Source: Oscillospiraceae bacterium (GTDB taxonomy: Bacteria > Bacillota > Clostridia > Oscillospirales > Acutalibacteraceae). From it: 39,346 nucleotides of DNA. Of the stretch, positions 6,417-36,252 are shown one piece after another. Location of the stretch: the NCBI GenBank assembly GCA_029218825.1, contig JAQXSC010000039.1, positions 1-39,346 of the forward strand. Reading direction: 5' to 3'. Each line of letters begins with the position of its first letter. Position 1 is the first letter of the stretch. The notes under the pieces are model-generated. The model ran no database searches, was not told the origin of the DNA, and worked only from the letters and a program-made list of their open reading frames with translations. Both the position numbers and the translations under genes were made by a program.

Positions 6417-6452
6417 TTTAAATTCCTCCTTATAATATACCAATACCATTAA

Positions 6453-7385: not shown

Positions 7386-7396
7386 AACTTACCCAC

Positions 7397-9609: not shown

Positions 9610-9610
9610 T

Positions 9611-10285: not shown

Positions 10286-10325
10286 GTTAGATAAAACAAA
10301 AATCAGTAAGGAGGTATAAATCGGA

Positions 10326-11777: not shown

Positions 11778-11789
11778 AAGGAGGTTTTT

Positions 11790-12677: not shown

Positions 12678-12690
12678 GGAGAACAGTATT

Positions 12691-13710: not shown

Positions 13711-13711
13711 T

Positions 13712-14602
13712 ATGAAAGTTTTAGTTACAGGCGTAGGCGGACAATTAGGCTATGATGTAATGATTGAACTTAATAAAAGAAATCACGAAGGTATAGGCTC
13801 TGATATTTTAGAGTCTGTACCTCTTGATATGTCATACACAAAGTTGGATATTACCGATGAAACCGCCGTGCTGAATACGATTAAAAATATCAGACCTGAC
13901 GCTGTAATTCATTGTGCCGCTTGGACTGCTGTTGACAATGCAGAGGACGAGGAAAACAAGGCAAAGGTAGAGGCTGTCAATGTTGACGGCACAAGAAATA
14001 TTGCAAAGGCTTGTAAAGAAACTGACTGCAAAATGATTTACATCAGCACAGACTACGTATTTGACGGACAGGGTACTACTCCTTGGACAGCGGATTGCAA
14101 GGACTACGCACCCCTGAATGTTTACGGTGAAAGCAAGTTGCAGGGTGAACTCAATGTCAGCGAAATTCTCGACAAGTACTTTATTGTGCGTATAGCATGG
14201 GTGTTCGGAGTTAACGGAAACAACTTTATCAAAACTATGCTTAACGTGGGCAAAAAGTTTGACACCTTAAAGGTTGTTAATGACCAAATCGGTACGCCAA
14301 CCTACACTTATGACCTTGCAAGGCTTCTTGTAGATATGGCGGAAACTGAAAAATACGGATATTACCACGCAACAAACGAGGGCGGATATATAAGTTGGTA
14401 TGACTTTGCGGTAGAAATATTTAAACAGGCAGGTTACACAACAAATGTATTACCTGTTACCACAGAGGAATATGGAATTTCAAAGGCAAAGCGTCCTTTC
14501 AATTCAAGGCTTGATAAAAGCAAACTTGCGGAAAATGGGTTTACCCCACTTCCAACCTGGCAGGACGCACTGAAAAGATATTTAAAAGAGATAGATTATT
14601 AA
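13712..14602 (+). CDS. rfbD: dTDP-4-dehydrorhamnose reductase
   Basis: MKVLVTGVGGQLGYDVM; ISTDYVFDGQG, YGESKLQGE. Track ORF begins at 13595, but its extension overlaps rfbB in another frame; ATG at 13712 is the proper start. Confidence 0.95.
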   Translation: MKVLVTGVGGQLGYDVMIELNKRNHEGIGSDILESVPLDMSYTKLDITDETAVLNTIKNIRPDAVIHCAAWTAVDNAEDEENKAKVEAVNVDGTRNIAKACKETDCKMIYISTDYVFDGQGTTPWTADCKDYAPLNVYGESKLQGELNVSEILDKYFIVRIAWVFGVNGNNFIKTMLNVGKKFDTLKVVNDQIGTPTYTYDLARLLVDMAETEKYGYYHATNEGGYISWYDFAVEIFKQAGYTTNVLPVTTEEYGISKAKRPFNSRLDKSKLAENGFTPLPTWQDALKRYLKEIDY

Positions 14603-14613
14603 GAGGTAAAACT

Positions 14614-15222
14614 ATGGGAAAGATTACTGTTGAAAAAAACGTAGGCGGAATAGAGGGTCTTTGCATTATTACTCCGTCGGTATTCGGCGACAATCGCGGA
14701 TATTTTATGGAAACCTACAACGAAAACGATATGAAAGAGGCAGGAATTAACATCACCTTTGTGCAGGATAATCAGAGTATGAGTACAAAGGGCGTACTTC
14801 GTGGACTTCACTTTCAAAAGGAATTTCCTCAGACTAAGCTTGTCCGTGCAATCAAAGGCTCTGTTTTTGACGTAGCGGTTGATTTAAGGGCAGATTCCAA
14901 AACCTACGGAAAATGGTACGGAGTTGAATTAACCGAGGAAAACAAAAAACAGTTTTTAATTCCAAAGGGCTTTGCTCACGGATTTTTAGTGCTGTCCGAC
15001 ACAGCGGAATTTTGCTATAAATGCGACGACTTCTATCACCCAAACGACGAGGGCGGTCTTGCTTGGAACGACCCTGAAATCGGCATAGAGTGGCCTCAGA
15101 CAGTAGGCGATTATCAGGGCAACTGTCAGGTAGGAAACTACCGCTTAACAGACGGCACACCTTTAAATTTATCTGAAAAAGACCAAAAATGGCTTGGAAT
15201 TAAAGATACTTTCAAATTCTGA
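14614..15222 (+). CDS. rfbC: dTDP-4-dehydrorhamnose 3,5-epimerase
   Basis: DNRGYFMETYNENDM, VLRGLHFQKEFPQTKLVRAIKGSVFDVAVDLR, IPKGFAHGFLVLSD. Confidence 0.95.
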   Translation: MGKITVEKNVGGIEGLCIITPSVFGDNRGYFMETYNENDMKEAGINITFVQDNQSMSTKGVLRGLHFQKEFPQTKLVRAIKGSVFDVAVDLRADSKTYGKWYGVELTEENKKQFLIPKGFAHGFLVLSDTAEFCYKCDDFYHPNDEGGLAWNDPEIGIEWPQTVGDYQGNCQVGNYRLTDGTPLNLSEKDQKWLGIKDTFKF

Positions 15223-15235
15223 TAGGAGAATGTAA

Positions 15236-16474
15236 ATGCAATCTGCTACCAATACACAGCACGTATTTCTTGTAGGTGCAAAATCTTTAGGGGCTTACGG
15301 GGGATACGAAACCTTTATAAACAAGTTAACCGAATATCATCAAAGTGACAACAGTCTGAAGTATCACGTTGCCTGCAAGGCAAACGGCGAAGGCTGTATG
15401 GATCCATATACAACAGAGGGTGCAACTATAATAAACGATAACGAATTTACATATCACAACGCCCACTGTTTCAGAATCCATATTCCCCAAAAGTTAGGCC
15501 CTGCACAGGCGATTTACTATGACGTAAAGGCGCTGAAAGAATGTTGCAAATATATTGAAAAGAACAATATTAAGCAGCCTATCGTTTATATAATGGCTTG
15601 TCGAATCGGACCTTTTATGAAGAAGTATTATAAAAGGATACATAAATTAGGGGGCAAGGTTTACCTTAACCCTGACGGCCACGAGTGGATGAGGGCAAAG
15701 TGGAGCGCACCTATCAGGAAATATTGGAAAATTTCCGAACAGATGATGGTTAAGTGGTCTGACCTTTCAATTTGCGACTCGGTAAATATTGAAAAATATA
15801 TTCACAAATGCTACGACGGCAAGGGCATAAAGGGAGCAAATCCAAATACCACCTTTATTGCCTACGGTGCGGAAACAAAGAAAAGCACCCTTGCAGATAA
15901 TGACGAAAAATTGCAGAATTGGTATAAGGAAAAAGGTCTGTCAAAGAAAAACTACTACCTTGTTGTAGGCAGATTTGTGCCTGAAAACAATTACGAAACT
16001 ATGATTCGTGAATATATGAAAAGCAACAGCAAGAAAGATTTTGCAATTATCACCAACGTAAACGATAAATTCCTTAATGAACTTGAACAAAGACTGCACT
16101 TTAAAAGTGACAGCAGAATCAAGTTTGTAGGCACAGTTTACGACCAAGAATTACTTTGGAAAATCAGAGAAAATGCCTACGGCTACTTCCACGGCCATGA
16201 AGTCGGAGGCACAAATCCAAGTCTGTTAGAGGCTTTAGGCTCAACGGAACTTAACCTGCTGTTGGACGTTGGCTTTAACCGAGAAGTAGCAGAGGATAAC
16301 GCAATCTACTGGACAAAGGAAGAGGGCAATTTAGCAGAACTTATTGACAAGGCTGACGGATTTTCTCCTGAAACCTGTGCCGAATACGGCAAAAAAGCAA
16401 AACAAAGAATTGCTGACGCCTACAGTTGGCGGTATATTTGCGATAGATATAAAAATACTTTTATAAAGGGATAA
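15236..16474 (+). CDS. Glycosyltransferase, GT4-like with DUF1972-type N-terminus (rhamnosyltransferase-like)
   Basis: VFLVGAKSLGAYGGYETFINKLTEYH; YLVVGRFVPENNYETMIREYM; GHEVGGTNPSLLEALGSTELNLLLDVGFNREV; directly after rfbC. Confidence 0.85.
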   Translation: MQSATNTQHVFLVGAKSLGAYGGYETFINKLTEYHQSDNSLKYHVACKANGEGCMDPYTTEGATIINDNEFTYHNAHCFRIHIPQKLGPAQAIYYDVKALKECCKYIEKNNIKQPIVYIMACRIGPFMKKYYKRIHKLGGKVYLNPDGHEWMRAKWSAPIRKYWKISEQMMVKWSDLSICDSVNIEKYIHKCYDGKGIKGANPNTTFIAYGAETKKSTLADNDEKLQNWYKEKGLSKKNYYLVVGRFVPENNYETMIREYMKSNSKKDFAIITNVNDKFLNELEQRLHFKSDSRIKFVGTVYDQELLWKIRENAYGYFHGHEVGGTNPSLLEALGSTELNLLLDVGFNREVAEDNAIYWTKEEGNLAELIDKADGFSPETCAEYGKKAKQRIADAYSWRYICDRYKNTFIKG

Positions 16475-16476
16475 CA

Positions 16477-17604
16477 ATGAAAAGGTTTTACTTAGAAGAT
16501 AGTACAGAATCCTACGAGGATAAATTTTTCGATAATTTAGTAATGCGTGAAACACCCTTGGGGTTTGTTTCTGTAAAAAACGCCATTGTTTTACCCCACA
16601 GAAAAGATTATTCAAATACGGTTTGGGGCAAAGGCGGAGTTATTGACCAATCCGGTGAATATGTGAAAGAATCCTTTTATAAAAATGGTTGGGTCACATT
16701 CGGAGGATATTATGACTACGACGGAAAAGTCAATGTAATTAACGGCTCGGCTATTTATTTAGGCTACTTCTTTAAACATTGGGGGCATTTTTTAAAAGAT
16801 ATTATTAACAGGATGTGGATAATATTAGAGCATTACCACAATGAATATGTAGTTTATCTCGGCGATGATGATATCAGCGGAAACTATCTTGAATTTATGA
16901 AAATGCTTGGAGTTCCTGAGGACAAACTAATAAGAATAGATAAGGCAACAAAATTCAGTGAAATAATAATTCCGGAATTATCCTACGTTTTAACAGAATA
17001 TTATACAAAAGAATATTTAGACATCTTTAACAGAGTTCGTGAAAACTGTCTTTCTGTATATTCTCAAAATCAAAGTGATTATATGGAAAATCAGTATAAA
17101 AATAAAAAAATCTATTTTTCCAGAGTAGCGTTTTCACGAGGAAAACGTGCCAAAGAGTTCGGCGAGGAATTCATAGAAAAAACATTTGAACTTAACGGTT
17201 ATAAAATTCTCAGGCCTGAAACATTAAGTTTATGTGAACAGATCTATATTTGGAATAATGCAGAAACTATAGCCTGTATAAACGGAACAATACCTATGAA
17301 TCTGCTTTTTAGTAACGGACAGGTGAAAGTAACTGTTCTTAATAAGACGTGTAATAAGCATTTGAATTTGTTGTTAATTGAAAAAATAAAAAATATATTT
17401 GTAACATATGTGGATATATACGATACCAAGCACACAAGCAAAAAAGTTTCTCTTGGAGCAGGCCCGTTTCTAATGAGAATTACAAATAGTTTTACTGATT
17501 TTTGTAAGGATTCCGGATATAAATTATCCAATGAAAATAAAGGAAAACTATTTTTAAATTTATTAAAATTTAAACTAATCCAAATTAAAAGATTAATTAA
17601 ATAA
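16477..17604 (+). CDS. Glycosyltransferase family 61-like protein
   Basis: GYFFKHWGHFLKDIINRMWIILEHY, KKIYFSRVAFSRGKRAKEFGEEFIEKTFELNGYKILRPETLSLCEQIYIWNNAETIACINGTIPMNLLF. Confidence 0.7.
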   Translation: MKRFYLEDSTESYEDKFFDNLVMRETPLGFVSVKNAIVLPHRKDYSNTVWGKGGVIDQSGEYVKESFYKNGWVTFGGYYDYDGKVNVINGSAIYLGYFFKHWGHFLKDIINRMWIILEHYHNEYVVYLGDDDISGNYLEFMKMLGVPEDKLIRIDKATKFSEIIIPELSYVLTEYYTKEYLDIFNRVRENCLSVYSQNQSDYMENQYKNKKIYFSRVAFSRGKRAKEFGEEFIEKTFELNGYKILRPETLSLCEQIYIWNNAETIACINGTIPMNLLFSNGQVKVTVLNKTCNKHLNLLLIEKIKNIFVTYVDIYDTKHTSKKVSLGAGPFLMRITNSFTDFCKDSGYKLSNENKGKLFLNLLKFKLIQIKRLIK

Positions 17605-17612
17605 TCATGTAA

Positions 17613-17687
17613 TTAAAGAATACATATTGGGGTAAGAATTGTAAGCAGTATATTTGTGACAAATACAAAAGAGCATTTACAAAATAG
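17613..17687 (+). pseudogene. Residual 3' end of a GT4/DUF1972-type glycosyltransferase gene
   Basis: Frame encodes LKNTYWGKNCKQYICDKYKRAFTK*, matching the C-terminus of the 15236-16474 product (YSWRYICDRYKNTFIKG*). Several matched codons differ only at the third position (tgc/tgt, gat/gac, tat/tac, aag/aaa). Confidence 0.55.
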
Positions 17688-17734
17688 AAATAAAACTTCC
17701 CTAAAAAATACAAAGCAAATTGAGGAATGGTTTA

Positions 17735-18553
17735 ATGAACGATATTGACTTAAAGCATATTCAACAATGTGAGTTGATGATTGCAAAGGAATTAAAAAGA
17801 ATATGTGAAAAGCACGATATAAACTACATTATGGGTTACGGTACTTTACTTGGCGCTATACGCCACAAGGGATTTATTCCCTGGGATGACGATATGGATT
17901 TTGCTTTTTTAAGAGAAGAATATGACAAGCTTATTGAGGTTTGCAAAACCGACCTTGACGACAAATTCTTCCTTCAAACCTGGGATACCGATCCGGAATA
18001 TCCCCACCCCTACGGCAAGATTTTGTTAAAAGATACATATGTTGAGGAATATTTCTCACAAAACACAAAATCTAAAAAAGGTTTATTCATTGACTTATTT
18101 CCACTGGACTTAATTTCAGATGATACAGACAAACAAAAGAAGTACATTAAAAGCGACTTTTTCTTTCGCCGGTCCTTGTGGATGAAAAAAGGTCACGGAA
18201 AACTTATACTGAAACAAAACTTAAAGCAAAAACTAAAATATATTTTCTCAAGATGCTTGTTTGCGTTTTTTCCATACAACTATTTAAAGTCCAAATACAA
18301 GAAAACTCAGATTGAATATAACAATGAAAACAACTGTATTCTATATGATTTTACGGTAAAATCAAAAAAGTTCTACAGCCGAGTAATGCTTGACGATGTT
18401 TCCTACTATGATTTTGAGGACACGCAGTTTCCCGGCCCACGAAAATATGACGAATATTTATCAAGGCTCTACGGCAACTATATGGAACTTCCCCCTGTGG
18501 AGGAACGCGGAAAACAGCACACTTTGATAAACTACGATTTTGGAAAATACTAA
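17735..18553 (+). CDS. LicD-family phosphotransferase (phosphocholine/polysaccharide modification type)
   Basis: INYIMGYGTLLGAIRHKGFIPWDDDMDFAFLREEYDKL is the LicD signature. The track TTG start at 17720 overlaps the SD; ATG at 17735 is preferred (GAGGA, 7 nt spacing). Confidence 0.9.
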   Translation: MNDIDLKHIQQCELMIAKELKRICEKHDINYIMGYGTLLGAIRHKGFIPWDDDMDFAFLREEYDKLIEVCKTDLDDKFFLQTWDTDPEYPHPYGKILLKDTYVEEYFSQNTKSKKGLFIDLFPLDLISDDTDKQKKYIKSDFFFRRSLWMKKGHGKLILKQNLKQKLKYIFSRCLFAFFPYNYLKSKYKKTQIEYNNENNCILYDFTVKSKKFYSRVMLDDVSYYDFEDTQFPGPRKYDEYLSRLYGNYMELPPVEERGKQHTLINYDFGKY

Positions 18554-18574
18554 ACAAATTTGAGGATTGATTCT

Positions 18575-19540
18575 ATGCACCCCTTAATCAGCGTAATTGT
18601 TCCTGTATATAATGTTGAAAAATATCTGGGCAGATGTTTAGACAGTATAATCGCACAAAGTTATAAAAACCTTGAGATTATACTTGTTGACGACGGCGCA
18701 AAGGATAACAGCGGAAAAATCTGTGATGAATATGCACAGAAAGACAGCCGAATTAAAGTTTTACACACCCAGAACGGTGGTCTGTCCGCTGCACGAAACA
18801 AAGGGCTGGATATTATAACCGGCGACTATGTAGCCTTTGTGGACAGCGACGATTATATCGCCCACAATATGATAGAAAAACTTTTTGATACTATTATTTC
18901 TAATAATGCCGACATTTCTATATGTGACCCTATACACGTTTTTGATGACCAAAAGGCAGAATTTGATACCGCAGACAGGGAAAGTGTTATATACAGTCCC
19001 ATTGAGGCAATTAAGGAAATGTGGTACCAGACTTCTTTCCTGCCCTCTGCTTGGGCTAAACTTTTTAAAGCAGATATTTTTAAAGATATAAGATACACCG
19101 AAGGCATTATATTTGAGGATATCGACATAATGCACGAGGTTTTTATAAAGGCAAATAAAATAGCCCATTTGCCACAGGGCTTGTATGCCTATATCCACAG
19201 GGAAAACAGCATTACAACCCAAGAATTTTCCGAAAAGGATTTTTACATACTTGATATTTGCAATAAGATAATGGAATTTGCCCAAAAGCAGGGACAAGGC
19301 TTGGAAAAACCTGCCCTTGCCTATGGTGTTACAGGCAATATGAGAGTGTATTTATCTACACCGAGAGAAGAAAAGTATGGGGATATTATTTCCAAAGCCG
19401 AAAAGTACATAACCAAAAACGGAAAAGTTGTTTTAAAGGACAACCGCCTCCGTAAAAAGGCAAAGTTAGGACTAAGACTGTACTACTTTAACAAACCCTT
19501 ATTCAGATTTGTTCATTCAAAAATTAACAGATGGAAGTGA
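18575..19540 (+). CDS. Glycosyltransferase family 2
   Basis: PLISVIVPVYNVEKYLGRCLDSIIAQSYKNLEIILVDDGAKDNSGKICDEYA...NGGLSAARNKGLDIITGDYVAFVDSDDYI. Start ATG 18575 with SD GAGGA. Confidence 0.93.
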   Translation: MHPLISVIVPVYNVEKYLGRCLDSIIAQSYKNLEIILVDDGAKDNSGKICDEYAQKDSRIKVLHTQNGGLSAARNKGLDIITGDYVAFVDSDDYIAHNMIEKLFDTIISNNADISICDPIHVFDDQKAEFDTADRESVIYSPIEAIKEMWYQTSFLPSAWAKLFKADIFKDIRYTEGIIFEDIDIMHEVFIKANKIAHLPQGLYAYIHRENSITTQEFSEKDFYILDICNKIMEFAQKQGQGLEKPALAYGVTGNMRVYLSTPREEKYGDIISKAEKYITKNGKVVLKDNRLRKKAKLGLRLYYFNKPLFRFVHSKINRWK

Positions 19541-19544
19541 CATA

Positions 19545-20525
19545 ATGAATATTTCTCTTTCAGTTATCATTCCCGTATATAACGGCAGTAAATATTTGGA
19601 AAAGGCTGTAAATTCAGTTACAGAATGTAATGACAAGGATTTTGAAATTATATTGATTGATGACGGAAGTACTGACGATACACCTGCACTTTGCGATAAA
19701 CTTCAGGAAAATGACAGCAGAATACATACTTTCCACATTGAAAATCTCGGTGTATCCAATGCACGAAACTTTGGTATTGAAAAGGCAAAGGGCGAGTTTC
19801 TCACATTTTTAGACGCAGACGATGAGTTCTTTCAGGGTGCTTTTGAAAAAGCAAAGGCAGACCTTGTAAATCAGGAAAATGATTTTATCATTTATCCTTA
19901 TTCAATTACTGACGAAAATGGTAACGAAAAAACCACAGTAGAACTTTTCAGCACAGAAAACCCCACTAAAAAAGAAATGTTTATGCACTTTATCAACTCA
20001 AGCAAAATGAATTTCTGCTGGGGCAAAATATACCGCACCGAATTTGTAAAGAAAAATTCAGTTAAATTTGATACTGCTTTTGATGTGGGAGAAGATATTG
20101 ATTTTCAATTATCTCTTTTCAAATATGAGCCAAGGGTCGAGTATTGCTTTACAAAACTTATAAAATATCGCCAGATTTCCTCCAGCGTAATGCATCAGTA
20201 CGATTTTACAAGGTTTGACAACCTGAAGGAATGTTACATTATGCGTAAGGATTTAGCCTCACAGATTGACTTTACCAAACAAGATGAAGAGGATATGTAC
20301 TGCGACTTAGGTAGGCGTTTGCTTTCATACACAAAAAACGTAAGCAAATTAAAACCCAAAAAAACGGTAATATCAAAGTTAAAGGAAAGTCTTGAAATAC
20401 CTGAAAACAGAGATATTCTCAACAACCTGCCGCTGCACAGAATGGACATGGTAAGAAAGATTATAGGTAAGTTACTGCAAAAAGGACATTACGGATTGGT
20501 AGTAAGGATTTTAAGTTTTATTTAA
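19545..20525 (+). CDS. Glycosyltransferase family 2
   Basis: SLSVIIPVYNGSKYLEKAVNSV...FEIILIDDGSTDDTPALCDK...LGVSNARNFGIEKAKGEFLTFLDADDEF. Start ATG 19545. Confidence 0.93.
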   Translation: MNISLSVIIPVYNGSKYLEKAVNSVTECNDKDFEIILIDDGSTDDTPALCDKLQENDSRIHTFHIENLGVSNARNFGIEKAKGEFLTFLDADDEFFQGAFEKAKADLVNQENDFIIYPYSITDENGNEKTTVELFSTENPTKKEMFMHFINSSKMNFCWGKIYRTEFVKKNSVKFDTAFDVGEDIDFQLSLFKYEPRVEYCFTKLIKYRQISSSVMHQYDFTRFDNLKECYIMRKDLASQIDFTKQDEEDMYCDLGRRLLSYTKNVSKLKPKKTVISKLKESLEIPENRDILNNLPLHRMDMVRKIIGKLLQKGHYGLVVRILSFI

Positions 20526-20545
20526 TATCGCAAGGAAAGACGTTT

Positions 20546-21694
20546 ATGGAAAATTCAGAAAAAAAGATACTTATCGTCACCGCCTTAACAGGCTTTATCA
20601 GAGCATTTATTCTTGATGATATAAAAATTTTGCAGTCTATGGGATATACCGTTGACTGTGCCGCTAATGGTGAACTTGACGACAGAACAATAGAGGATAA
20701 CAGAGAATTTTTCAAAAATATCGGCGTAAACTTTTTTCATATTCCCTTTTCTTCCAACAACCCTTTTTCAAAAAGCACATTGAAATCCTACAAGGCTTTC
20801 AGAAAAATTATTAAAAACACCCATTATGACGCAGTACATATTCACACGCCTATTCCCGGAGTAGTGTGCCGTACTGCACTTATGTTCAAAAGAAAACAAA
20901 CTAAAATTATATACACAACTCACGGCTTTTACTTTCACAAATACAGCAGTAAAAAAACATGGCTTGTTTTCCACACTATAGAAAAGGTTATGTCACGTTT
21001 TACCCACTGCATTATCACCATAAACAACGAGGACTTCAACAACGCCAAAAAAATGCATTGTAAAAATGTTTACCATATTAACGGCGTAGGTGTAGAAACC
21101 TCAAAATACGAAAACATTGAAATTGACCGCAGGGAATACCGCAGAAAATTAGGCATACAAGACAATGAAATTGCACTGCTGTCTGTAGGTGAACTGTCAG
21201 ACAGAAAAAATCACAAAATAGTTATTGAGGCTATGAACAAATTAAAAGACCTGCCTTTGGTATATCTTATATGCGGAAGAATCAACAAAAACAGCGGTAC
21301 ATACACAGAGCTAAAGCAACTCTCGGATAATTTAGGTGTTCGTGTAATATTCTTGGACTACAGACGTGATATTCCGGAAATTTCAAAATCCTGTGATATT
21401 GGTGCTCTCCCCTCTACAAGAGAAGGATTGGGACTTGCAGGTATCGAAATGTTAGCCGCAGGGCTTCCTTTGGTTGCCTCAAATGTTCACGGAATTGTGG
21501 ACTTTGCAGTTGACGGACAAACAGCATATACCGCTAACCCCTACAGCGAAGATGAATTTGCACAGGCTATTAAAAAATTATCGGACAAAGACTTGAGAGA
21601 AAAAATGAGAGATAACTGTATCAGCAAGGCTAAAGAATTTGATATGGCAATATCCCATAAGCAAAGAAAAGAAATCTACGAAAATATTTTATAA
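20546..21694 (+). CDS. Glycosyltransferase family 4 (EpsD-like)
   Basis: YDAVHIHTPIPGVVCRTALM, TTHGFYFHK, LSVGELSDRKNHKIVIEAM, LPSTREGLGLAGIEMLAAGLPLVASNVHGIVDF. Confidence 0.9.
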   Translation: MENSEKKILIVTALTGFIRAFILDDIKILQSMGYTVDCAANGELDDRTIEDNREFFKNIGVNFFHIPFSSNNPFSKSTLKSYKAFRKIIKNTHYDAVHIHTPIPGVVCRTALMFKRKQTKIIYTTHGFYFHKYSSKKTWLVFHTIEKVMSRFTHCIITINNEDFNNAKKMHCKNVYHINGVGVETSKYENIEIDRREYRRKLGIQDNEIALLSVGELSDRKNHKIVIEAMNKLKDLPLVYLICGRINKNSGTYTELKQLSDNLGVRVIFLDYRRDIPEISKSCDIGALPSTREGLGLAGIEMLAAGLPLVASNVHGIVDFAVDGQTAYTANPYSEDEFAQAIKKLSDKDLREKMRDNCISKAKEFDMAISHKQRKEIYENIL

Positions 21695-21723
21695 ACCGCA
21701 AAAACAAAAACAGAGGTGAGAAT

Positions 21724-23007
21724 ATGAATAAAATATCAATCAGGAAAACTATTCCGATTTCATATATTTTGATTTTGCCTCTGTGCATTATTATTCCTAA
21801 CACCGTTACTATTCTTATGGGGTTATATGCACCTTTAAGGTGGTTTATACCTTTTTATATATTATTCATTTTTATAATAAGAGCCGCCAAAAACAAAAAA
21901 GTAAATCTAACCTACACCCCTGAAGTAGGTTTGTGGGCATTTTGTCTGTTATTTTTATGGGCAGGTGTACTTTACAGCGTAGATAAAAACGCAACTATGG
22001 ATTATTGCATTACCTTATCCATATATTCTATTTTCCTTGTTGCAAGGTTAAGGGTCGATTTTTATTCTTTGCTTTACAAATGCTTGTACGCTATACTGTT
22101 TGTGCTGATGATTTCAATATATATAAACGGATTTGTCCCCAACCTTATGACAGGACCCTTGTCTTTCCTTGTGGCAAGTGGCGGTAAAGAGGCTCTTGCT
22201 TTGGAAGTATCCTCAGGAATATACTCCGGCTTGTTTGCAGACAGAGCATCCGCTGCCTTTGGTATGAATTTAGGATTTATCATCAGCCTGAGTTCTTTTC
22301 TTAACAACTATAAAAAGAAACACTTATTTGCATCAATCTTGTTCTTTGCGGCTATCTTTTTCACAGGAAAAAGAACATTGGCTATTATCCCTGTTATTTT
22401 GGTTTTTCTTGCCCTTATTTTCATAAGTAAAGGTAATTTAAGAAAAATCTACATATTCATTACCGCAATTCTGACCTCATTTATTGGAATAATTTTGATT
22501 GCATTTCCGCAAATTTTAATGTCTTTGGACCGCACAGGTACAGGCGACCTTACCACAGGCAGAGATACTATCCTCTGGCCTGTTGCCTTCGATATGTTTA
22601 ATTCACATAAACTGTTGGGTACAGGCATTAACACCTTTAACAGCGTTATTCAGTCACAAAACCCAAACAATCTGACTTTATCAAACTGGGGTTTCCACGC
22701 ACACAATATATACATACAGTTTTTAGGCGAGGTTGGAATTATCGGCACATTATTGCTTTGCACAGCGATAATATATTTCCTTGTTAAAACTGTTAAAACC
22801 ATACACAAAGCACAGAACAGTAAATATAAAACACTTGCAACTATTTCATTGTTAATCCAATTTCTGTGGATTATATACGGACTTACAGGAAACACCTTCT
22901 ATTATTCATCACAATTTCTGTGCTATATAGTAGCATTAAGCACTATGGAGGCGGTAATATATGAAGAAAAAAAGCGTGGCAATATTAACCTTTCACAGGG
23001 CGGTTAA
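21724..23007 (+). CDS. O-antigen ligase/polymerase-like membrane protein (Wzy-like)
   Basis: Poly-TM protein with the O-antigen ligase-like signature ...GRDTILWPVAFDMFNSHKLLGTGINTFNSV...SNWGFHAHNIYIQFLGEVGIIG. Confidence 0.85.
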   Translation: MNKISIRKTIPISYILILPLCIIIPNTVTILMGLYAPLRWFIPFYILFIFIIRAAKNKKVNLTYTPEVGLWAFCLLFLWAGVLYSVDKNATMDYCITLSIYSIFLVARLRVDFYSLLYKCLYAILFVLMISIYINGFVPNLMTGPLSFLVASGGKEALALEVSSGIYSGLFADRASAAFGMNLGFIISLSSFLNNYKKKHLFASILFFAAIFFTGKRTLAIIPVILVFLALIFISKGNLRKIYIFITAILTSFIGIILIAFPQILMSLDRTGTGDLTTGRDTILWPVAFDMFNSHKLLGTGINTFNSVIQSQNPNNLTLSNWGFHAHNIYIQFLGEVGIIGTLLLCTAIIYFLVKTVKTIHKAQNSKYKTLATISLLIQFLWIIYGLTGNTFYYSSQFLCYIVALSTMEAVIYEEKKRGNINLSQGG

Positions 23008-24055
23008 TTACGGTGCTGTTTTACAGGCATACGGACTGCAAACCGCACTGAACAACTTAGGCTTTAAGGCGGATATTCTCGACTACAGAAATGACGGAGT
23101 GGAGAATTACTACTATAAAACATTTAAAGGTAAAAATCTAAAGGGCGCCGTAAAATCAATAGTAACACATAAAACTCAAAAAGAACGGAACAAAAAATTT
23201 ATAGAATTTTCAAAGCAGTATTTAAACTACAGCGAAAAAACATATAACAGAAAAACAGTTATCCACTCAAAGGATTTATACGATTACTTTATTGTAGGCA
23301 GTGACCAAATGTGGAACCTGCCTGCAATTCACTATGATAAAACCTACTTCCTTGATTTTGTAACGGACAACTCCAAGAAAAAGTCCTACGCAATAAGTAT
23401 GGGAAAAATCAGCGATTGTGAGAAGGATTACGGCGATTACTACCCATTAATCAATGACTTTGACAACATCTCCCTGCGTGAAAATGCAGGTAAAAATTTC
23501 CTTGAAAAGAACGTCAGCAAGGATATTACCATTGATTTAGACCCAAGTTTTCTTTTGGAAAGTTCACAATGGCGAGAAATTTCCAAAAGTCCCCAAATAG
23601 ATAATTACGCATTAATATATTCCGTAAATCTCACCGCCAATGTAATCGAAACAGGCAGAAAATACGCAAAGGAAAACGGATTGAAACTTGTTTTTGTAAC
23701 ACTTCGAAATAAGGAAATCCCTTTACAGGACAACGAAATTAATCTTTCCTGCTGTAGTCCGACGGAATTTTTAGGGCTTATTGATAATGCAAAATGTGTT
23801 ATTACAAACTCTTTCCACGGAACAGCCTTTTCTGTTGTTTTAGGCACAAACTTCTGGACTGTTAAAAATTCCGCACAGGGTCTTGATAACAGCCGAATGG
23901 AAACTTTGCTCAATACATTTAATTTGTCGGACAGGCATATTTCCGCTCCTGACGAGGCTACGGATATTTTAACGGACTTCTCAAAAGCAGAGGAAATTTT
24001 ATCAGAACTCCGTAATAAAAGCATTTCAAATTTAATCGATAGTTTAAATAAGTAA
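22961..24055 (+). CDS. Polysaccharide pyruvyl transferase family protein
   Basis: VAILTFHRAVNYGAVLQAYGLQTALNNLGFKADILDYRN; DYFIVGSDQMWN; LIDNAKCVITNSFHGTAFSVVLG. Confidence 0.9.
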   Translation: MKKKSVAILTFHRAVNYGAVLQAYGLQTALNNLGFKADILDYRNDGVENYYYKTFKGKNLKGAVKSIVTHKTQKERNKKFIEFSKQYLNYSEKTYNRKTVIHSKDLYDYFIVGSDQMWNLPAIHYDKTYFLDFVTDNSKKKSYAISMGKISDCEKDYGDYYPLINDFDNISLRENAGKNFLEKNVSKDITIDLDPSFLLESSQWREISKSPQIDNYALIYSVNLTANVIETGRKYAKENGLKLVFVTLRNKEIPLQDNEINLSCCSPTEFLGLIDNAKCVITNSFHGTAFSVVLGTNFWTVKNSAQGLDNSRMETLLNTFNLSDRHISAPDEATDILTDFSKAEEILSELRNKSISNLIDSLNK

Positions 24056-24072
24056 TCATAGAAAGTGATAAA

Positions 24073-25464
24073 ATGCAATTAGTAAAAAAGGCAATTACAA
24101 AATTCAACAATTCCAATATGCTGAAAAATGTCACCAAAATTTCTTCAGGTACAATTTTAGGGCAGTTAATTTCACTTGTTACCCTGCCGATTTTTACCAG
24201 ATTATACGGCGCTACAGTAATCGGCTACTGGGCGTTGTTTACCTCGGTGGCTGCTATTGTCAACAGTTTTTCCGATTTAGGTATGTCAAACGCAATTATG
24301 ATTGAAGAGGATGAAAACCAAAGGAAAAGACTGTTTTCGGTTATTACTACCTTGGGCATAGTGTTCAGTGTAGTTGTAGGTGCAGGATACTTTGTTTACT
24401 ATACCCTTTGCCCTAACGACACTGGTATTCACCCGCTGTTTTACGCAGTTGTTTTGGCTGTTTTGATTTTCACACAGCAACAGATTCAACTGAGTTACAG
24501 TTGGCTCAACAAGAAAAAACAATACAATATACTGATGAAAAATCCTGTAGTAAACCAGTTGACTATTGCAATTATCGCTATTCCTTTGGGACTGATGGGC
24601 AAGTATTTAAACATCGGTATTTTTATTACATACGGTTATTATATAGGTCTTATTTTAGGTCAGTTTTTAACTCTTGTGCATATGCGCAGGTTTATTCCTG
24701 CCATACTGCCTGACTTTAACATTAATAACCATATTGCAAATATAAAAAAATACCGAGAGTTTGTTCAGTACCAAACTCCCACAAACTTTTTGGCACAGAT
24801 TAAATCTCAGGCTCCCGTGCTGTTAATCAAAATGTTCTTCGGCCCTACAATTTTAGGTTATTACAGCGTAACCCAAAGAATTTTAGGTATCCCAATTAAC
24901 CTGTTAGCCAACGCTATCGGCAAGGTCTATTATCAGTCTGTAGTTGAGGTTTCCAACCGTGGGGAATCTGTAGGACAGTTTACATTTAAAAATATGGAAA
25001 GAGCAATGAAAATCGCCCTTGTGCCAATGGTTCTGATTATGGGCTTTGGCGATATTGCTTCCGTATTTTTCCTTGGTGCCGATTATTCGGTAGCAGGTAA
25101 CCTTATCAGAATCATATCTTTGATGACATTCTTTACCTTCCTGATGATTGCAACCCAAGGTATTGCCATTGTAATTCACAAGCAAAAATATATGCTTATA
25201 TCTGCTGTGGTGCAAATTATCGGCTACGTTGCAGGACTTTCAATAGGCAAATATGTATTTGATAATATTTATATTGCTTGTTTCCTTATGGTTTTGACCT
25301 TCTGTATTGCGCAAATCGTTTATTTCTGTGCAATTTTCAAAGTGACAGGAATAACCCCTTGGCGTTATCTGAAAGGAGTTTTACTGTCCCTTGGTGTAAT
25401 GGCTGTAGGCACTGCCGTTATCCGAATTTTACTGTTGTTGATTTTTAATGTGCCTATTATATAA
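24073..25464 (+). CDS. Oligosaccharide flippase (Wzx/MATE-like)
   Basis: MLKNVTKISSGTILGQLISLVTLPIFTRLYGATVIGYWALFTSVAAIVNSFSDLGMSNAIM; about 12 TM helices. Confidence 0.92.
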   Translation: MQLVKKAITKFNNSNMLKNVTKISSGTILGQLISLVTLPIFTRLYGATVIGYWALFTSVAAIVNSFSDLGMSNAIMIEEDENQRKRLFSVITTLGIVFSVVVGAGYFVYYTLCPNDTGIHPLFYAVVLAVLIFTQQQIQLSYSWLNKKKQYNILMKNPVVNQLTIAIIAIPLGLMGKYLNIGIFITYGYYIGLILGQFLTLVHMRRFIPAILPDFNINNHIANIKKYREFVQYQTPTNFLAQIKSQAPVLLIKMFFGPTILGYYSVTQRILGIPINLLANAIGKVYYQSVVEVSNRGESVGQFTFKNMERAMKIALVPMVLIMGFGDIASVFFLGADYSVAGNLIRIISLMTFFTFLMIATQGIAIVIHKQKYMLISAVVQIIGYVAGLSIGKYVFDNIYIACFLMVLTFCIAQIVYFCAIFKVTGITPWRYLKGVLLSLGVMAVGTAVIRILLLLIFNVPII

Positions 25465-25513
25465 TTTTGGCATAGGATTCATATAGAATAAACTGTTAAT
25501 TGCGAGAGGAATT

Positions 25514-26383
25514 ATGGTAACTAAATTAAAATCTATTATAAGAAAAATCGGCATAGGCGCCTTTGTTCAAAATATTGTAAGAAAATTTTTGCTTCTGTTT
25601 CATATGAATAATAACTACATTCTGTTCACAAGCAAAAAGGCGGAAAAAAACAAGGTTAATATTAACTACTGCCACGATTTTAAAAACGTGGGAGATAATA
25701 TTTCCCCTGTTTTGGTAAAATATGCCGCTGAGTACAATAATATCGATATAAACAAAACCGTTTCTAAAACAAAACACCTGTTTGCCGTTGGCTCAATAAT
25801 TACCGCCGGCGCACAGGACTGCACAGTATGGGGCAGTGGATTGCTTAACACTTCAATCCTGAACAGATTGGATAAAAGAGAAATTGATTTCAGAGCAGTA
25901 AGAGGACCTGTCAGCAGAGCAATATTAATGGACAGAGGTTTTCAAGTGCCTGATATTTACGGCGACCCTGCATTGTTGACACCAAAGTTCTACAACCCAC
26001 AGGTAGAAAAGAAATACCGGGTAAGTCTGATTACCCATATGAACGAAACTAAAAACAGCCTGCCTGACAAGATTCATCAAATCAATATTGTTACAGACGA
26101 TTACAAGGAATTTGTCAGGGAAATTAAAAGTTCCGAATTAGTTATTTCTTCAAGTTTGCACGGAATTATTTTTGCAGAGGCATATGGAGTTCCTGCAATT
26201 CTGTTAAAACCGAAAACAGATATGCTGAAATATTTTGATTACTATTTCAGCACAAACAGAATGAGTTTTCCTATTGCAAACAGCATTGAGGAAGCCTTGA
26301 CTGTAAAACCGCTTGACATACCGGATTTATCACAAATGCAAGAAAAACTTTTAGATGCCTTTCCTGTGGATTTATGGGAATGA
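25514..26383 (+). CDS. Second polysaccharide pyruvyl transferase family protein (ExoV/GumL-like)
   Basis: CHDFKNVGDNISPVLVKYAAEY; FAVGSIITAGAQDCTVWGSGLLN; DFRAVRGPVSRAILMDRG; YGDPALLTPKF; SSLHGIIFAEAYGVPAILL. Confidence 0.85.
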   Translation: MVTKLKSIIRKIGIGAFVQNIVRKFLLLFHMNNNYILFTSKKAEKNKVNINYCHDFKNVGDNISPVLVKYAAEYNNIDINKTVSKTKHLFAVGSIITAGAQDCTVWGSGLLNTSILNRLDKREIDFRAVRGPVSRAILMDRGFQVPDIYGDPALLTPKFYNPQVEKKYRVSLITHMNETKNSLPDKIHQINIVTDDYKEFVREIKSSELVISSSLHGIIFAEAYGVPAILLKPKTDMLKYFDYYFSTNRMSFPIANSIEEALTVKPLDIPDLSQMQEKLLDAFPVDLWE

Positions 26384-26413
26384 TAAATTTTATAAAAATT
26401 TGAGGATAATCGT

Positions 26414-26629
26414 ATGAATAAAATACCCACATTATATGAAAATAAAGAAAACTGTTGCGGATGCTCCGCCTGTTACGCTGTCTGTCCTGTAAAGGCGATT
26501 ACCATGACAGCAGATACCGAGGGCTTTTTGTATCCTGCAATAGACGAAAGTAAATGTATCGGCTGTCATAAATGTTTGCAAGTCTGTTCCTTTAAGGCAG
26601 ACCAAATAAAAAAAGGATTTCTACAATAA
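26414..26629 (+). CDS. 2x[4Fe-4S] ferredoxin-like protein
   Basis: CCGCSACYAVCPVKAITM and CIGCHKCLQVCSF; 71 aa; directly upstream of a FrhB-like ORF with which it is usually fused. Confidence 0.85.
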   Translation: MNKIPTLYENKENCCGCSACYAVCPVKAITMTADTEGFLYPAIDESKCIGCHKCLQVCSFKADQIKKGFLQ

Positions 26630-26642
26630 AAGGAATATGAAA

Positions 26643-27599
26643 ATGGAACAAGGATTTAAAACTTTGGCATATGCTGTTAAGCACAAGGATTTTGAAACAA
26701 GAATGGCGTCACGTTCAGGGGGTATTTTTACCGCCCTGTCCGACTGTGTTCTGGAAAAGCAGGGAGTAGTTTACGGCTGTGTATTAACGGAAGATTTCAA
26801 CGCAGTACATATAAGAGCAGAAAAAGCAACAGAACGCAACAAAATGAGAGGGTCAAAATATATCCAAAGTGATATGGGAGATATGTTTAACTCTGTTAAA
26901 AATGATTTGGAGAACGATAGGCTTGTGCTGTTTTCAGGCACTTCCTGTCAGGTTGCAGGATTGAAAGGCTTTTTGCAAAAGCCATATGAAAATTTACTTT
27001 GTATAGATATCCTATGTCATGGTGTTCCAAGTCCAAGGGTGTGGCAGGACTATATAAAATTCCAAGAAAAAAGAGCCGATGGAAAATGCACAAAGGTGGA
27101 TTTTCGCAACAAAAGGGATTTCGGATGGCTTAACCACATTGAAACTTTGTACTTCGATAACGGCAAAAGGATTGACAGCGAGATATTCAAAACACTTTTC
27201 TTCAATCACTCTATACTCCGTCCCTGCTGTTATAAATGCCCCTACAAATCTACCGAGCATCCCTCGGATATTACCATAGCCGACTATTGGGGCATTGATA
27301 AGGCTGTTCCCAACTTCAACGACAACAAGGGTGTTTCTTTGGTTTTGATAAACAGTAAATTAGGCTTTGAGTTTTTTGAAAAAGTAAAGGACTTTACAGA
27401 ATACAGAGAAAGCAGTATTGAAAACAGTATGCAACCTGCACTAATCAAGCCTACCGATAAGCCCAAAAATCGAGAGGAATTTTGGGATAATTACAATAAA
27501 AAGTCATTTGAGTATATAGCTAAAAAATACGGCAATTTCTCACTGACTGTCAGGTTAAAAAGAAAAGTTAAAAAGATTATTAAAAAGATTATCAAATAG
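26643..27599 (+). CDS. Coenzyme F420 hydrogenase/dehydrogenase beta-subunit-like protein of the capsule-locus type
   Basis: SRSGGIFTALSDCVLEKQGVVYGCVL...FSGTSCQVAGLKGFL...CIDILCHGVPSPRVWQDYIKF...CYKCPYKSTEHPSDITIADYWGI. ATG 26643 has SD AAAGGA at good spacing; the track start at 26637 is too close to the SD. Confidence 0.85.
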   Translation: MEQGFKTLAYAVKHKDFETRMASRSGGIFTALSDCVLEKQGVVYGCVLTEDFNAVHIRAEKATERNKMRGSKYIQSDMGDMFNSVKNDLENDRLVLFSGTSCQVAGLKGFLQKPYENLLCIDILCHGVPSPRVWQDYIKFQEKRADGKCTKVDFRNKRDFGWLNHIETLYFDNGKRIDSEIFKTLFFNHSILRPCCYKCPYKSTEHPSDITIADYWGIDKAVPNFNDNKGVSLVLINSKLGFEFFEKVKDFTEYRESSIENSMQPALIKPTDKPKNREEFWDNYNKKSFEYIAKKYGNFSLTVRLKRKVKKIIKKIIK

Positions 27600-27652: not shown

Positions 27653-29188
27653 TTAAACTAAATAAGTGATAGAAAAGTTTAATTCCTCATCCTGTGTACG
27701 TGCTGTTGTTGATGATGAAATAAATAACATACCTGAACTGACTGCCATTCTGAACATTTCGCCCTTATTTGTTGCTGAGTATATTCTTAATTGACCTACT
27801 TTATTGTTGTAATTAAAAGGCAAACCGTTAAATCCTGCGTAGTTACAACTTCCTGCATTAAACTTTATACTGCAAAACAGGGTTATCACTTCCCCTTGCT
27901 TTACATAGTAATAAGTTGCCGAGGATATTACATTTGAATCAATTATTGATTGTGAAGTAATGTTTAATGTTCCTGAACCGCTGACGCTTTGGTTAGCAAT
28001 AATTTCATCAACTTCCTCTTTGGTGTATAAACCTAAATCCGATAAAGTTTTATTGCCTGTCAATTCCACGTCATTAATTTTAGGTTTATTTTTAAAATCG
28101 CTGTAATCATATGATGAGCCGATAAGTTTTAGCTCACCGCTTGTCAAAATTCTGTAGTTAGCTTTAATTTGTCCCTCACCGCTTGAAATAAACAGCCAAC
28201 CGCTATTGATTTTCTTAATAAAGCCTACATACATACCTACTCCGCCAAAATCAGCGTTACTGCCTCTCAAACCGATAATTCCGGAGTGGAAGTAGTAAAT
28301 TTTACTTTTATCGATACAATCGGCTAAGTCCGTTCCATAGCCACATTCAACTAATAAATCCACATTTCCTAAATTATCAGGAAAAACACCGTTTACTGAA
28401 TTTACCTTTTGGCTGATAACGGAAGTAAATTCGCTCCACATATCCTCTGTCAGGTTATAATATCTGTAAAAGATATTGCCATTATCGGTAATAAGTATCT
28501 GCGTGTTTTCGTCAGTAGCAAAGAGAATGCCCTTTGTACCCTGGGCAACATTGTTGCAGGAAGCATTAAAGCAGACATTGTATATAGTGTCAGGGTCACA
28601 GGCAAATGTAAGTCCACCTGTACCGCCTGCATCATGGTAGATGTTTTCGAAGTTTGCCTTTTTTGCAAGTGAGTTGTAAACTGCACCGCTGGAAATCAAC
28701 TTGTTGCTGTTCTCTGTAGGCTGGGTATCAAACTCAAAGGTCGCTAAATTATCGTATATTTCCTGACCTTTTCTTACAATCTCGTTTAATTTCTCCTCGT
28801 GTTGGAGATATTCCGACACCTTTTTCTCTGCAAAACTGTCGCAAAATTCAATAGAGGACTGGACAAGCATATTTATTGAATTTGTGTGGAACACCTCACC
28901 GCTTGAGTTAGAAGCTTTTATCTGCACCTTAACAATGCCGTCCTTGTAAATCTGGTGAGAAGTTATATCCCAAATCAACTTTGTACCGCTGTCACTTTCC
29001 GCCTTTTCCAATAAAAAGAAGTTGCAAGTGCCGTCGTCAAACTTAAGATACATTCTGTAAATCAGGCTGATGTCCGTTTCGTTCTCTACTAAAATTTCTT
29101 TTCTGACGTTTAAGTTATCTCCTGTGTAGCCGATAAAAATATCATCATCGGTTACCACTAAATTTTTGTTTCTGTCAATTTTAATCAA
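27653..29188 (-). CDS. Phage baseplate/tail-fibre-like protein (BppU-like N-terminus), orphan
   Basis: N-terminal region resembles phage baseplate upper protein (FIGYTGDNLNVRKEILVENETDISLIYRMYLKFDDGT...). C-terminal half has tail-fibre linkers SDFKNKPKINDVELTGNKTLSDLGLYTKEEVDEIIANQ. SD AAAGGAGGTG lies inside the track ORF, favouring the TTG at about 29188 over 29215. Confidence 0.65.
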   Translation of the reverse strand: MIKIDRNKNLVVTDDDIFIGYTGDNLNVRKEILVENETDISLIYRMYLKFDDGTCNFFLLEKAESDSGTKLIWDITSHQIYKDGIVKVQIKASNSSGEVFHTNSINMLVQSSIEFCDSFAEKKVSEYLQHEEKLNEIVRKGQEIYDNLATFEFDTQPTENSNKLISSGAVYNSLAKKANFENIYHDAGGTGGLTFACDPDTIYNVCFNASCNNVAQGTKGILFATDENTQILITDNGNIFYRYYNLTEDMWSEFTSVISQKVNSVNGVFPDNLGNVDLLVECGYGTDLADCIDKSKIYYFHSGIIGLRGSNADFGGVGMYVGFIKKINSGWLFISSGEGQIKANYRILTSGELKLIGSSYDYSDFKNKPKINDVELTGNKTLSDLGLYTKEEVDEIIANQSVSGSGTLNITSQSIIDSNVISSATYYYVKQGEVITLFCSIKFNAGSCNYAGFNGLPFNYNNKVGQLRIYSATNKGEMFRMAVSSGMLFISSSTTARTQDEELNFSITYLV

Positions 29189-29313
29189 ATTTTCACCTCC
29201 TTTACTCTTAGGCAAAAGATAGGTGAAATTGCATAGTTAAAGGCAATTATTTTTAAATTTTCATAAAACTTTATTGTGTTCACATACTAATAAAAAGTAT
29301 TAGGTGTGATAAA

Positions 29314-33255: not shown

Positions 33256-36252
33256 CTATTGCAGAGTACCGGCGGTTGCAGAAGTGCATACCATATATTT
33301 ACCATCATAAAAAGACAGCGGAACGCTTTGTTCATCAACAACCTGACTAATCCAAGTTTGCTGAGTAGAGTCATAGGTTTGGAACTGCACCTTTATAACG
33401 TCTGTATATGTGGGGTTTTCTATAACTGTTTTATACACATAACGACCCTCTGAATAAAGTGTGTCGGTTTTTGTAAACCAATATGGGTGATAAGTGTTAG
33501 CACTGTCCTTAACATTCAGTTTAAAGGTATTTGACGACGCCTGTGAATCTGCGTCAGGCACCATATATACAGTATAACTTACCTGTGTAGTCGGAGTGCT
33601 TTCTGTAGTAGGCTGTGTAGCCTCTGTCGGTTCAACAGAGGCTGAGCCACAAGTGATTTTTAGAGTATTCTCTGTAGGATTATACACAAATTTCAAAGAT
33701 ACGCTTGTTGACAAGCCCTTTATTGTAATACTCTTGCCTTTTGTTTTAGAGTTCAAAAGAGTATAGTCATATACTGCGTCAGGAGAATATGTAAAGTTTG
33801 TACTTGCAGGAACACAGTTATAAGTCTTGTCGGAATTGTTATATATATTAATGCTCATATTACTGCTGTCCTTTGGAACAAAGTCAAGTGCATATGTTCC
33901 GTCTGACTGCGGTACAAGGAATGTATCTATTGTTGTCCAAGCGTGAGAAGTTGAGTTGAAATAGCAAAGTGCGTAACGGTTACTGTCATCAATAATTTGA
34001 GTAGTTGTAGGAGGAATTGTAGGTTCTTCTCCACCCTCAAAAGTGAAGTTGCCCACTGTCAATTTTCCTTTTGATGTGTTGCCGTCAAGGTAGAAACAGT
34101 TACCTTCATAGTCGCTTAATCCGATGTCAACAGTCTGGTCTGTGCCGTTGGTAAAGATTAGATTCTTATACTGTCCTGCTGATTCAAACTTAATGCCGTA
34201 AACATCATGTGTTCCGTTTGTTCCAACCTTTTGCATAGGTACTCCCGGCCATTCAGCGATTTTATCTAAACCGGTCCAAGCGTAGCATTTTACTGTTGTC
34301 CAATCATTAGTATTTTCAAAATAGTAGGTATCTCCGATAGGATAAACAACCGGAACACCGATATATTCAACGATTGCGGAAAGTTCAGAAATGGCTGTTT
34401 CAAATTCTGCGATAACACTTTCATCGGCAGCGGTTTCACCTTTGTACTGATAGTACAACTTCTTTAACGCCTGATATTGGTCATAAGATGCGAAAGGATA
34501 TTTTAAATCAAGGTGCTGTTTTGCCAGTGCAAGTTCTTCGGTTAGCGTTGACGCACCAACTGAATATATGCTCTTTTTAGCAGAGGAAGTAAATGTATCG
34601 CTTTCAGGAGCAGGATATGGGAAAGTAGTAATTATATTTGCGATATACATTTGGATTGTTGTAGCATCCCTCACGTCAACCTTATTGTCAAAGGTAACGT
34701 CTGCAACTGCAAGTGCCTCTGTGCTTAACAGATTAGTCTCTGCAATATGCCTCTGTACAGCAGTTGCATCGGAAATATCAACCACACCGTTGCCGTTCGT
34801 ATCTCCCATTAATGTATAAACAGGTGTTGTTTCCGTAGTCGGCTGTGTATCAGCGCTTGTAGGAGGAGCAGTTGTAACGCTTTCTGACGGATTTGTCGGA
34901 TTTGTGCTTTCCGGAGTTGACTGTCTTGAACCCTCCATAACGTATGAATATGCAGGGTAAATAAGTTCGTCGGTTAGGTTAGCACCATAGTAAACTACCT
35001 GATTTTCATAGGTTTCCACGTAATAACCCTGTGAGTTATATCCCAGACCGTTTCTGTAATCAAGTCCGTTATCAGAGGAATTTGCCTTGGTTGTGCCTGC
35101 AACAGAAGGATTGTGAATCATATTTGCTGCTGTACCGTTTTCGTCAGAGTAGTTATAGCCCATCGAAAAGTCCTCGTGGGTATGACCTGACATCCAAATA
35201 ACATCAGGATATTTAATCAGCAAGTTTTTGAATTGAACCGTTGAAACGTAGGATTCGCTTAAATGAGCCTTGTAGTAAGGGCTGATCATTCTGTCTCCGG
35301 CACCAAAGCCTTTGATTGGTGAGTGTTCAACAATATAGATATTTTTACCCTTGCCGTAGTTTTCGCTTAACAGATTTGAAAGCCAGGTAATTTGCTCTTG
35401 TGAAAATTCGTCTGCACCGGCGGGATTTCCGTCTTTTTCCAAAGCCATAAATATAAAGATATCCCCTGTTTTCTTTTCTGTTACGTAATAGTAAGGCTTG
35501 TTAGCGTCATAATTTGCAATAGTATTATCAGTACCTGTTGCCTTTACAAAGGTAGTGTTGCCCTTTGTAGGACTGTCCTTTAAATCGTGGTTGCCGTTTG
35601 ACTCCCAAACAGGATTTACGTAGTCAGACTCTGCAAGGATTCTTTCATATCTGTCCCACTCTGCCGTTCTGCCGAAAGTTACAGTGTCACCTGAAGTTAC
35701 TATAAAATCCGTACCCTTATCAACGCCGAATTTTAAAGCCTGTGCCAAATTTTTCGGAGCATTTACAAAATAGTTGTCGTCTGCAATATGAATATCCGAG
35801 TAGGAATTAAACTTGTAAAGAAGTTCGCCGCCGTTAAATTGCTTTTCTACAGGAATGTTGTAAACTGCAACTGCGTTTGCTACGGATTTGTCGTCGGTTG
35901 TTGTTGCAATAACTTTTGTTGCACCCTGCGGAATAACCGTGTGGTAGCCAAACTTAAACTCTTTGCTGCTGTCTGCAGATACAGTTAGAGAAGTGATGGC
36001 ATAGTAACCCTCAAGAGCCTTTGTATCGTCAGCCCAGTAAAGGTTGTATTTGCCCTCCGTGTCGGTGGAGAGTGTAATTGTACCCTCGGCATAGCCGGAA
36101 GTATCTTTGTCATTTCCTGTGAAAACGTAATCGATAGTAGTACCTGTTTCCGCATTTACAGTAACGGCAAAAACAGAAACTACCGAAAACATCAGCACTA
36201 AAGACATAATAATTGCCAATGATTTTTTAGATAATCTAATAGCCTTTGACAT
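33256..36252 (-). CDS. Large secreted calcineurin-like metallophosphoesterase with internal type I dockerin and C-terminal starch-binding-like modules
   Basis: Signal peptide; SDIHIADDNY, TSGDTVTFG, WESNGNHDLKDS, WMSGHTHEDFSMG (metallophosphoesterase motifs); dockerin MGDTNGNGVVDISDATAVQRHIA / ADVTFDNKVDVRDATTIQMYIA; TYYFENTNDWTTVKCYAWTG..WPGVPMQKVG..YKNLIFTNG (CBM26-like); Thr/Pro linkers. Confidence 0.88.
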   Translation of the reverse strand: MSKAIRLSKKSLAIIMSLVLMFSVVSVFAVTVNAETGTTIDYVFTGNDKDTSGYAEGTITLSTDTEGKYNLYWADDTKALEGYYAITSLTVSADSSKEFKFGYHTVIPQGATKVIATTTDDKSVANAVAVYNIPVEKQFNGGELLYKFNSYSDIHIADDNYFVNAPKNLAQALKFGVDKGTDFIVTSGDTVTFGRTAEWDRYERILAESDYVNPVWESNGNHDLKDSPTKGNTTFVKATGTDNTIANYDANKPYYYVTEKKTGDIFIFMALEKDGNPAGADEFSQEQITWLSNLLSENYGKGKNIYIVEHSPIKGFGAGDRMISPYYKAHLSESYVSTVQFKNLLIKYPDVIWMSGHTHEDFSMGYNYSDENGTAANMIHNPSVAGTTKANSSDNGLDYRNGLGYNSQGYYVETYENQVVYYGANLTDELIYPAYSYVMEGSRQSTPESTNPTNPSESVTTAPPTSADTQPTTETTPVYTLMGDTNGNGVVDISDATAVQRHIAETNLLSTEALAVADVTFDNKVDVRDATTIQMYIANIITTFPYPAPESDTFTSSAKKSIYSVGASTLTEELALAKQHLDLKYPFASYDQYQALKKLYYQYKGETAADESVIAEFETAISELSAIVEYIGVPVVYPIGDTYYFENTNDWTTVKCYAWTGLDKIAEWPGVPMQKVGTNGTHDVYGIKFESAGQYKNLIFTNGTDQTVDIGLSDYEGNCFYLDGNTSKGKLTVGNFTFEGGEEPTIPPTTTQIIDDSNRYALCYFNSTSHAWTTIDTFLVPQSDGTYALDFVPKDSSNMSINIYNNSDKTYNCVPASTNFTYSPDAVYDYTLLNSKTKGKSITIKGLSTSVSLKFVYNPTENTLKITCGSASVEPTEATQPTTESTPTTQVSYTVYMVPDADSQASSNTFKLNVKDSANTYHPYWFTKTDTLYSEGRYVYKTVIENPTYTDVIKVQFQTYDSTQQTWISQVVDEQSVPLSFYDGKYMVCTSATAGTLQ

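Follow-up and report, generated by a model that had tools for sequence, protein, structure and literature searches.

We analyzed a stretch of 39,346 nucleotides (the window hereafter; positions 1 to 39,346 of contig JAQXSC010000039.1, assembly GCA_029218825.1) from a gut bacterium of the Oscillospiraceae; it contains a Wzx/Wzy capsule operon on the plus strand. The larger, 5' part of the operon (8869-22960) was identified by Pfam matches and encodes Wzz, a Wze-like ATPase, a priming transferase, RmlABDC, a DUF1972 glycosyltransferase, a GT61 protein, a LicD-family phosphotransferase (17720-18553; PF04991, 4e-42), two GT2 proteins, a GT4 protein, and a Wzy/ligase-family protein. The 3' end encodes, in this order and also on the plus strand, a member of the polysaccharide pyruvyl transferase family of the NYGAVLQ class (PT1, 22961-24055; PF04230, 5e-33), a Wzx-type flippase (24073-25464; PF01943, 1e-16), a second, ExoV-like pyruvyl transferase (PT2, 25514-26383; PF04230, 1e-15), a 71-aa 2[4Fe-4S] ferredoxin with two intact CxxCxxCxxxC motifs (26414-26629; Fer4 families, 3e-12), and a 320-aa FrhB-like protein, predicted to be an Fe-S flavoprotein (26637-27599; PF04432, 4e-22; PF04422, 4e-7), whose true start may be the ATG at 26643 instead of 26637. 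The initial annotation had described two pyruvyl transferases, a Wzx flippase, and a ferredoxin/FrhB pair in this part of the operon, and Pfam confirmed all of them in place. The polymer made by the operon is plausibly heavily decorated and anionic.

The FrhB-like protein belongs to the FrhB/FdhB fold family (PF04432/PF04422) by both profile and fold. Its profile scores exceeded the curated cut-offs (79 bits vs 23.3 for PF04432 and 30 vs 22 for PF04422), and all Foldseek matches of its AlphaFold model (pLDDT 94.8) with E < 1e-3 were FrhB-fold proteins, HCAR (5DQR) among them. Four cysteines (C104, C127, C198, and C201) are invariant and, along with the SGG and SKY motifs and both ferredoxin clusters, are kept across phyla. 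Among solved structures, it was HCAR that the FrhB profile aligned with over most of its length, the 4 invariant cysteines falling on HCAR cysteines, as a weak match (chain E 0.035), and its similarity to F420-using members was weak and confined mainly to the N-terminal half. The protein shares domain family and fold with the beta subunit of F420-reducing hydrogenase, but it scored only 20 bits against the NCBIfam FrhB model (cut-off, 269), and the window holds no F420 genes and the operon no hydrogenase. The source genome (1.75 Mb, 119 contigs, 92.7% complete) contains exactly 1 PF04432 gene, the one in the capsule operon, and neither CofE (PF01996) nor CofD (PF01933) was found in it, in agreement with the initial annotation, which had seen no sign of F420 metabolism. 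Because both genes are absent, the label "F420 hydrogenase" is very unlikely to describe the function of this protein, and its use of F420 is equally improbable. We predict instead a ferredoxin-dependent reductase, with the 71-aa ferredoxin as its likely electron donor or transfer domain.

The arrangement of the 2 redox genes varies among relatives. In most of them, including most of the distant ones, the ferredoxin domain is fused to the N-terminus of FrhB, whereas in the closest relatives (about 50-62% identical) it is mostly a separate gene lying upstream or downstream of FrhB, and the split is therefore a property of a subclade. A short GGATTT-type repeat around the junction hinted at an insertion, with a recent frameshift that had separated the ferredoxin from FrhB in the window, and this was rejected because the closest relatives commonly have separate genes, in either order. 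Ruminococcus albus plasmid pRUMAL02, for example, carries a pyruvyl transferase, a flippase, FrhB, and a separate 4Fe-4S gene in that order, with rml genes adjoining. Some of the closest relatives also have a second FrhB paralogue; tandem paralogues were seen at 5 loci (L033, L036, L043, L051, and L052), in 4 of which a separate ferredoxin gene follows them, and part of the subclade may thus have a heteromeric enzyme.

We searched 100 genomes of the family for FrhB and obtained 38 clear PF04432 matches. A PF04230 gene is no more than 10 kb away from 35 of them and no more than 5 kb away from 32, with about 1 expected by chance. By the 10-kb measure, only 5 of 99 genes for LicD, taken as a control, have a PF04230 neighbor (Fisher p = 9e-24). 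Thus, the co-occurrence of FrhB with pyruvyl transferases, which the initial annotation had proposed to compare with background, is far above it. Only 3 of the 99 LicD genes have FrhB close by, which is no strong linkage; LicD was rejected as a functional companion of FrhB, and its being brought in together with the redox genes, as in the initial annotation, was not supported, the gene being incidental to the module and outside it in the operon. Nitroreductase was considered as an alternative partner in this family and gained no support: among the matches listed, 1 lay within 10 kb of a pyruvyl transferase.

The pairing extends well beyond the family. Among 80 named loci with FrhB, spanning Clostridia, Bacteroidota, Myxococcales, Elusimicrobia, Spirochaetia, and others, 61 contain a pyruvyl transferase, as do 37 of the 43 with full flanks; these loci were chosen by FrhB similarity, in a genome scan with a set of closely related FrhB sequences, so the counts speak for generality and are not an unbiased rate. 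The commonest order is transferase, Wzx, FrhB, with the flippase commonly between or beside the other two. Pairs also occur on annotated plasmids of Pseudobutyrivibrio, Ruminococcus albus, Bacteroides, Parabacteroides, and Loktanella. Further, we identified 7 single-chain transferase/FrhB fusions, with the transferase first in 6 and FrhB first in 1, and 6 of the 7 include a ferredoxin domain. The other neighbors of FrhB are mainly glycosyltransferases, flippases, and polymerases (Wzy), and no other modifying enzyme was found to recur among them, which makes the product of the transferase the likeliest substrate of FrhB. The pair is a widespread cassette, not peculiar to the locus in the window, and PT1 and FrhB very probably form one functional module. 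On Pseudobutyrivibrio xylanivorans plasmid pNP95, the annotation gives the pyruvyl transferase beside FrhB in 2 overlapping pieces, and that of R. albus pRUMAL02 is also in 2 pieces (sites L190:10936-11989 and L191:5215-6458 cover the 2 plasmids).

The 2 transferases of the window differ in their relation to FrhB. PT1 belongs to PF04230 by profile and by the GT-B-like fold of its AlphaFold model (pLDDT 93.7), for which Foldseek matches include Pvg1p (5AX7, E 6e-6); a sequence search with PT1 against the PDB gave nothing significant. Its class is defined by an N-terminal NYGA..LQ motif, and in the family, FrhB is nearby in 28 of 39 transferases of this class vs 7 of 25 classified as "other" (p = 8e-4), with a third class, bearing a GCEA motif, at 4 of 8. 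The usual partner of FrhB is thus the PT1 class. Some FrhB genes adjoin transferases of other classes. Conversely, no FrhB is visible around 11 of the 39 members of the PT1 class, some of which sit at the end of a contig, so these transferases may also work without FrhB. PT2 is assigned to PF04230 by profile; its plasmid homologues are mostly rhizobial, and across 149 aligned columns it shares 29% identity with a frame, itself without annotation, in the exo region of Sinorhizobium meliloti pSymB, which we take to be exoV. From this resemblance, PT2 is probably an ordinary, ExoV-like ketal transferase, so the window would probably hold a ketal-forming enzyme alongside a module made of a transferase and a reductase. 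The initial annotation had tied a redox step to both transferases; linkage and fusions bear out the tie to a pyruvyl transferase, in an organism without F420 genes, but the involvement of both was not supported, as PT2 is ExoV-like and the usual partner class is that of PT1.

We also looked for a residue that separates lactyl from ketal transferases, and none was found. Ser or Thr in place of an Arg before the conserved His, in a column that seems to correspond to Pvg1p R337, correlates with FrhB (p = 7e-4). It was rejected as a signature of non-ketal transferases because the ExoV-like frame of the S. meliloti exo region also has Ser there.

No electrons are consumed when a ketal is formed from PEP. 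For a reductase whose gene adjoins that of the transferase, and is sometimes fused to it, the simplest role is to act on the C3 group that has been transferred. We therefore propose that the module performs reductive pyruvylation with a lactyl (1-carboxyethyl) ether as its product, a reading that we consider about evenly balanced between right and wrong. PT1 would work on the cytoplasmic side, where it would attach a PEP-derived C3 group (enolpyruvyl or pyruvyl) to the hydroxyl of a sugar in the lipid-linked repeat unit; electrons would pass from the ferredoxin pool of the cell, not from F420, through the 2[4Fe-4S] ferredoxin to the FrhB-like protein, presumed to bind a flavin, which would reduce the C3 group to the lactyl ether. 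Chemically, either an enolpyruvyl ether could be reduced, or a ketal could be opened to the 1-carboxyethyl ether. The modified unit would then be flipped by Wzx, and PT2 would probably add an ordinary pyruvate ketal elsewhere on the polymer.

Several known systems share parts of this scheme. BciB, an 8-vinyl reductase annotated as frhB, contains FAD and Fe-S and draws on reduced ferredoxin to reduce a vinyl group (PMC4836224), and the FrhB of the window may do likewise. With BciB and HCAR it has in common the fold family and, as proposed here, the Fe-S/flavin reductase architecture and ferredoxin, not F420, as donor. Whereas those enzymes have chlorophyll substrates, its gene lies in capsule loci next to those of pyruvyl transferases, and in its subclade the ferredoxin has a gene of its own. 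The proposed logic, a PEP-derived C3 group followed by flavoprotein reduction, is that of MurA/MurB, which make the lactyl ether of MurNAc, and the module would be their functional counterpart in an anaerobe. No sequence relation to that pair is claimed, since PT1 is GT-B-like and FrhB is not a MurB, and the proposed donor is ferredoxin in place of the NADPH of MurB-type enzymes. PT1 and PT2 are PF04230 members, as are Pvg1p, CsaB, and ExoV; the latter make redox-neutral ketals, with no reductase partner reported in the literature that we searched.

Independent, though indirect, support for a lactyl product comes from Klebsiella capsules. Among K types, lactyl ethers are listed only for K22, K37, and K66 (PMC6856556, Table 1), and a pyruvyl-transferase gene in a capsule lacking pyruvate was reported only for K8, K22, K37, and K66 (PMC4616057), K8 being listed as pyruvylated in PMC6856556, unlike in PMC4616057. 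Thus, like the window, K22, K37, and K66 have a pyruvyl-transferase gene, and their capsules carry a lactyl ether, not pyruvate. The overlap of the 2 sets has a chance of about 3e-4, with the limit that K22 and K37, which differ by a point mutation (PMC5359410), share nearly one locus and are not fully independent cases. Across 79 Klebsiella cps loci, 2 nitroreductase genes and 1 coenzyme F420 hydrogenase gene were reported (PMC4616057). Since a point mutation is what distinguishes K22 from K37, the obvious reading would put the nitroreductases in these 2 types and the F420 hydrogenase in K66, as putative redox partners; the texts of the Klebsiella papers do not name the K type that carries the latter. 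A DNA search of E. coli genomes for an enterobacterial FrhB gave no match.

The same evidence bears on other readings of the pair. FrhB and PT1 could be a functional unit with a product other than a lactyl ether: the group derived from pyruvate might, for example, be extended or rearranged, or a sugar might be reduced first and then ketalised by PT1. The linkage of the module holds whatever the product, Providencia has lactate-like ethers, 2,4-dihydroxypentanoic acid among them (PMC10609480), and at one locus a PT1-class transferase is fused to the N-terminal domain of a thiamine-diphosphate enzyme, so the class may feed several chemistries. That locus has no FrhB, however, and the agreement of structures with genes in Klebsiella favors plain lactyl ethers; we regard a non-lactyl product as unlikely, though it deserves to be kept in mind. 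The fusion in question (L122:4108-6885, minus strand; PF02776) is perhaps a route to longer pyruvate-derived ethers of the Providencia kind.

HCAR removes a hydroxyl. By analogy, since HCAR is a Foldseek match in the same fold family, FrhB could be an electron-transfer or sugar-reducing enzyme of an unrelated step, such as an HCAR-like deoxygenation, and would co-occur with the transferases because both serve capsule decoration and decoration genes are shuffled among capsule loci. This explanation is quite improbable given that LicD, also a capsule decoration gene, is almost without such linkage in the same genomes, that single-chain transferase/FrhB fusions exist, and that no deoxysugar gene recurs among the neighbors of FrhB beyond occasional Rml-type genes. 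It is more doubtful still that both transferases make ordinary pyruvate ketals and that FrhB is regulatory, structural, or vestigial. Ketals form from PEP without a redox step, and Pfam names the family after polysaccharide pyruvyl (ketal) transferases, but the retention across phyla of the FrhB cysteines, the SGG and SKY motifs, and the ferredoxin clusters makes a vestigial protein unlikely.

Reductive pyruvylation would give a biosynthetic origin to a known decoration. Lactyl ethers occur in capsules or O antigens of Klebsiella K22, K37, and K66, Shigella dysenteriae, Enterococcus faecalis, and Proteus. Both protein families of the module were already known, and no assigned function for the pair was found in the papers that we searched; closed papers, such as a Shigella O-antigen review cited in PMC10609480, may hold a proposal. 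More tentatively, a transferase with a flavoreductase may be a general, previously unassigned route to lactyl ethers in bacterial surface polysaccharides, with ferredoxin/FrhB in anaerobes and perhaps a nitroreductase-type enzyme in some Klebsiella; on that reading, many capsule-locus genes now labelled coenzyme F420 hydrogenase would be capsule reductases. To our knowledge, the biosynthesis of lactyl ethers in polysaccharides has not been assigned outside MurNAc of the cell wall. If reductive pyruvylation is true, a widespread and mis-annotated gene pair allows lactyl ethers to be predicted from the sequences of many bacteria of the gut and rumen, and capsule assembly gains a redox step.

The surroundings of the operon were also annotated. 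The flanks (2723-8062 and 33256-36252, minus strand) encode dockerin, sortase, and starch-binding-module (CBM26) proteins, which suggest a starch-degrading, Ruminococcus-like host. Directly behind the capsule operon, a minus-strand open reading frame of 520 aa (27653-29215) has weak similarity to a phage minor tail protein.
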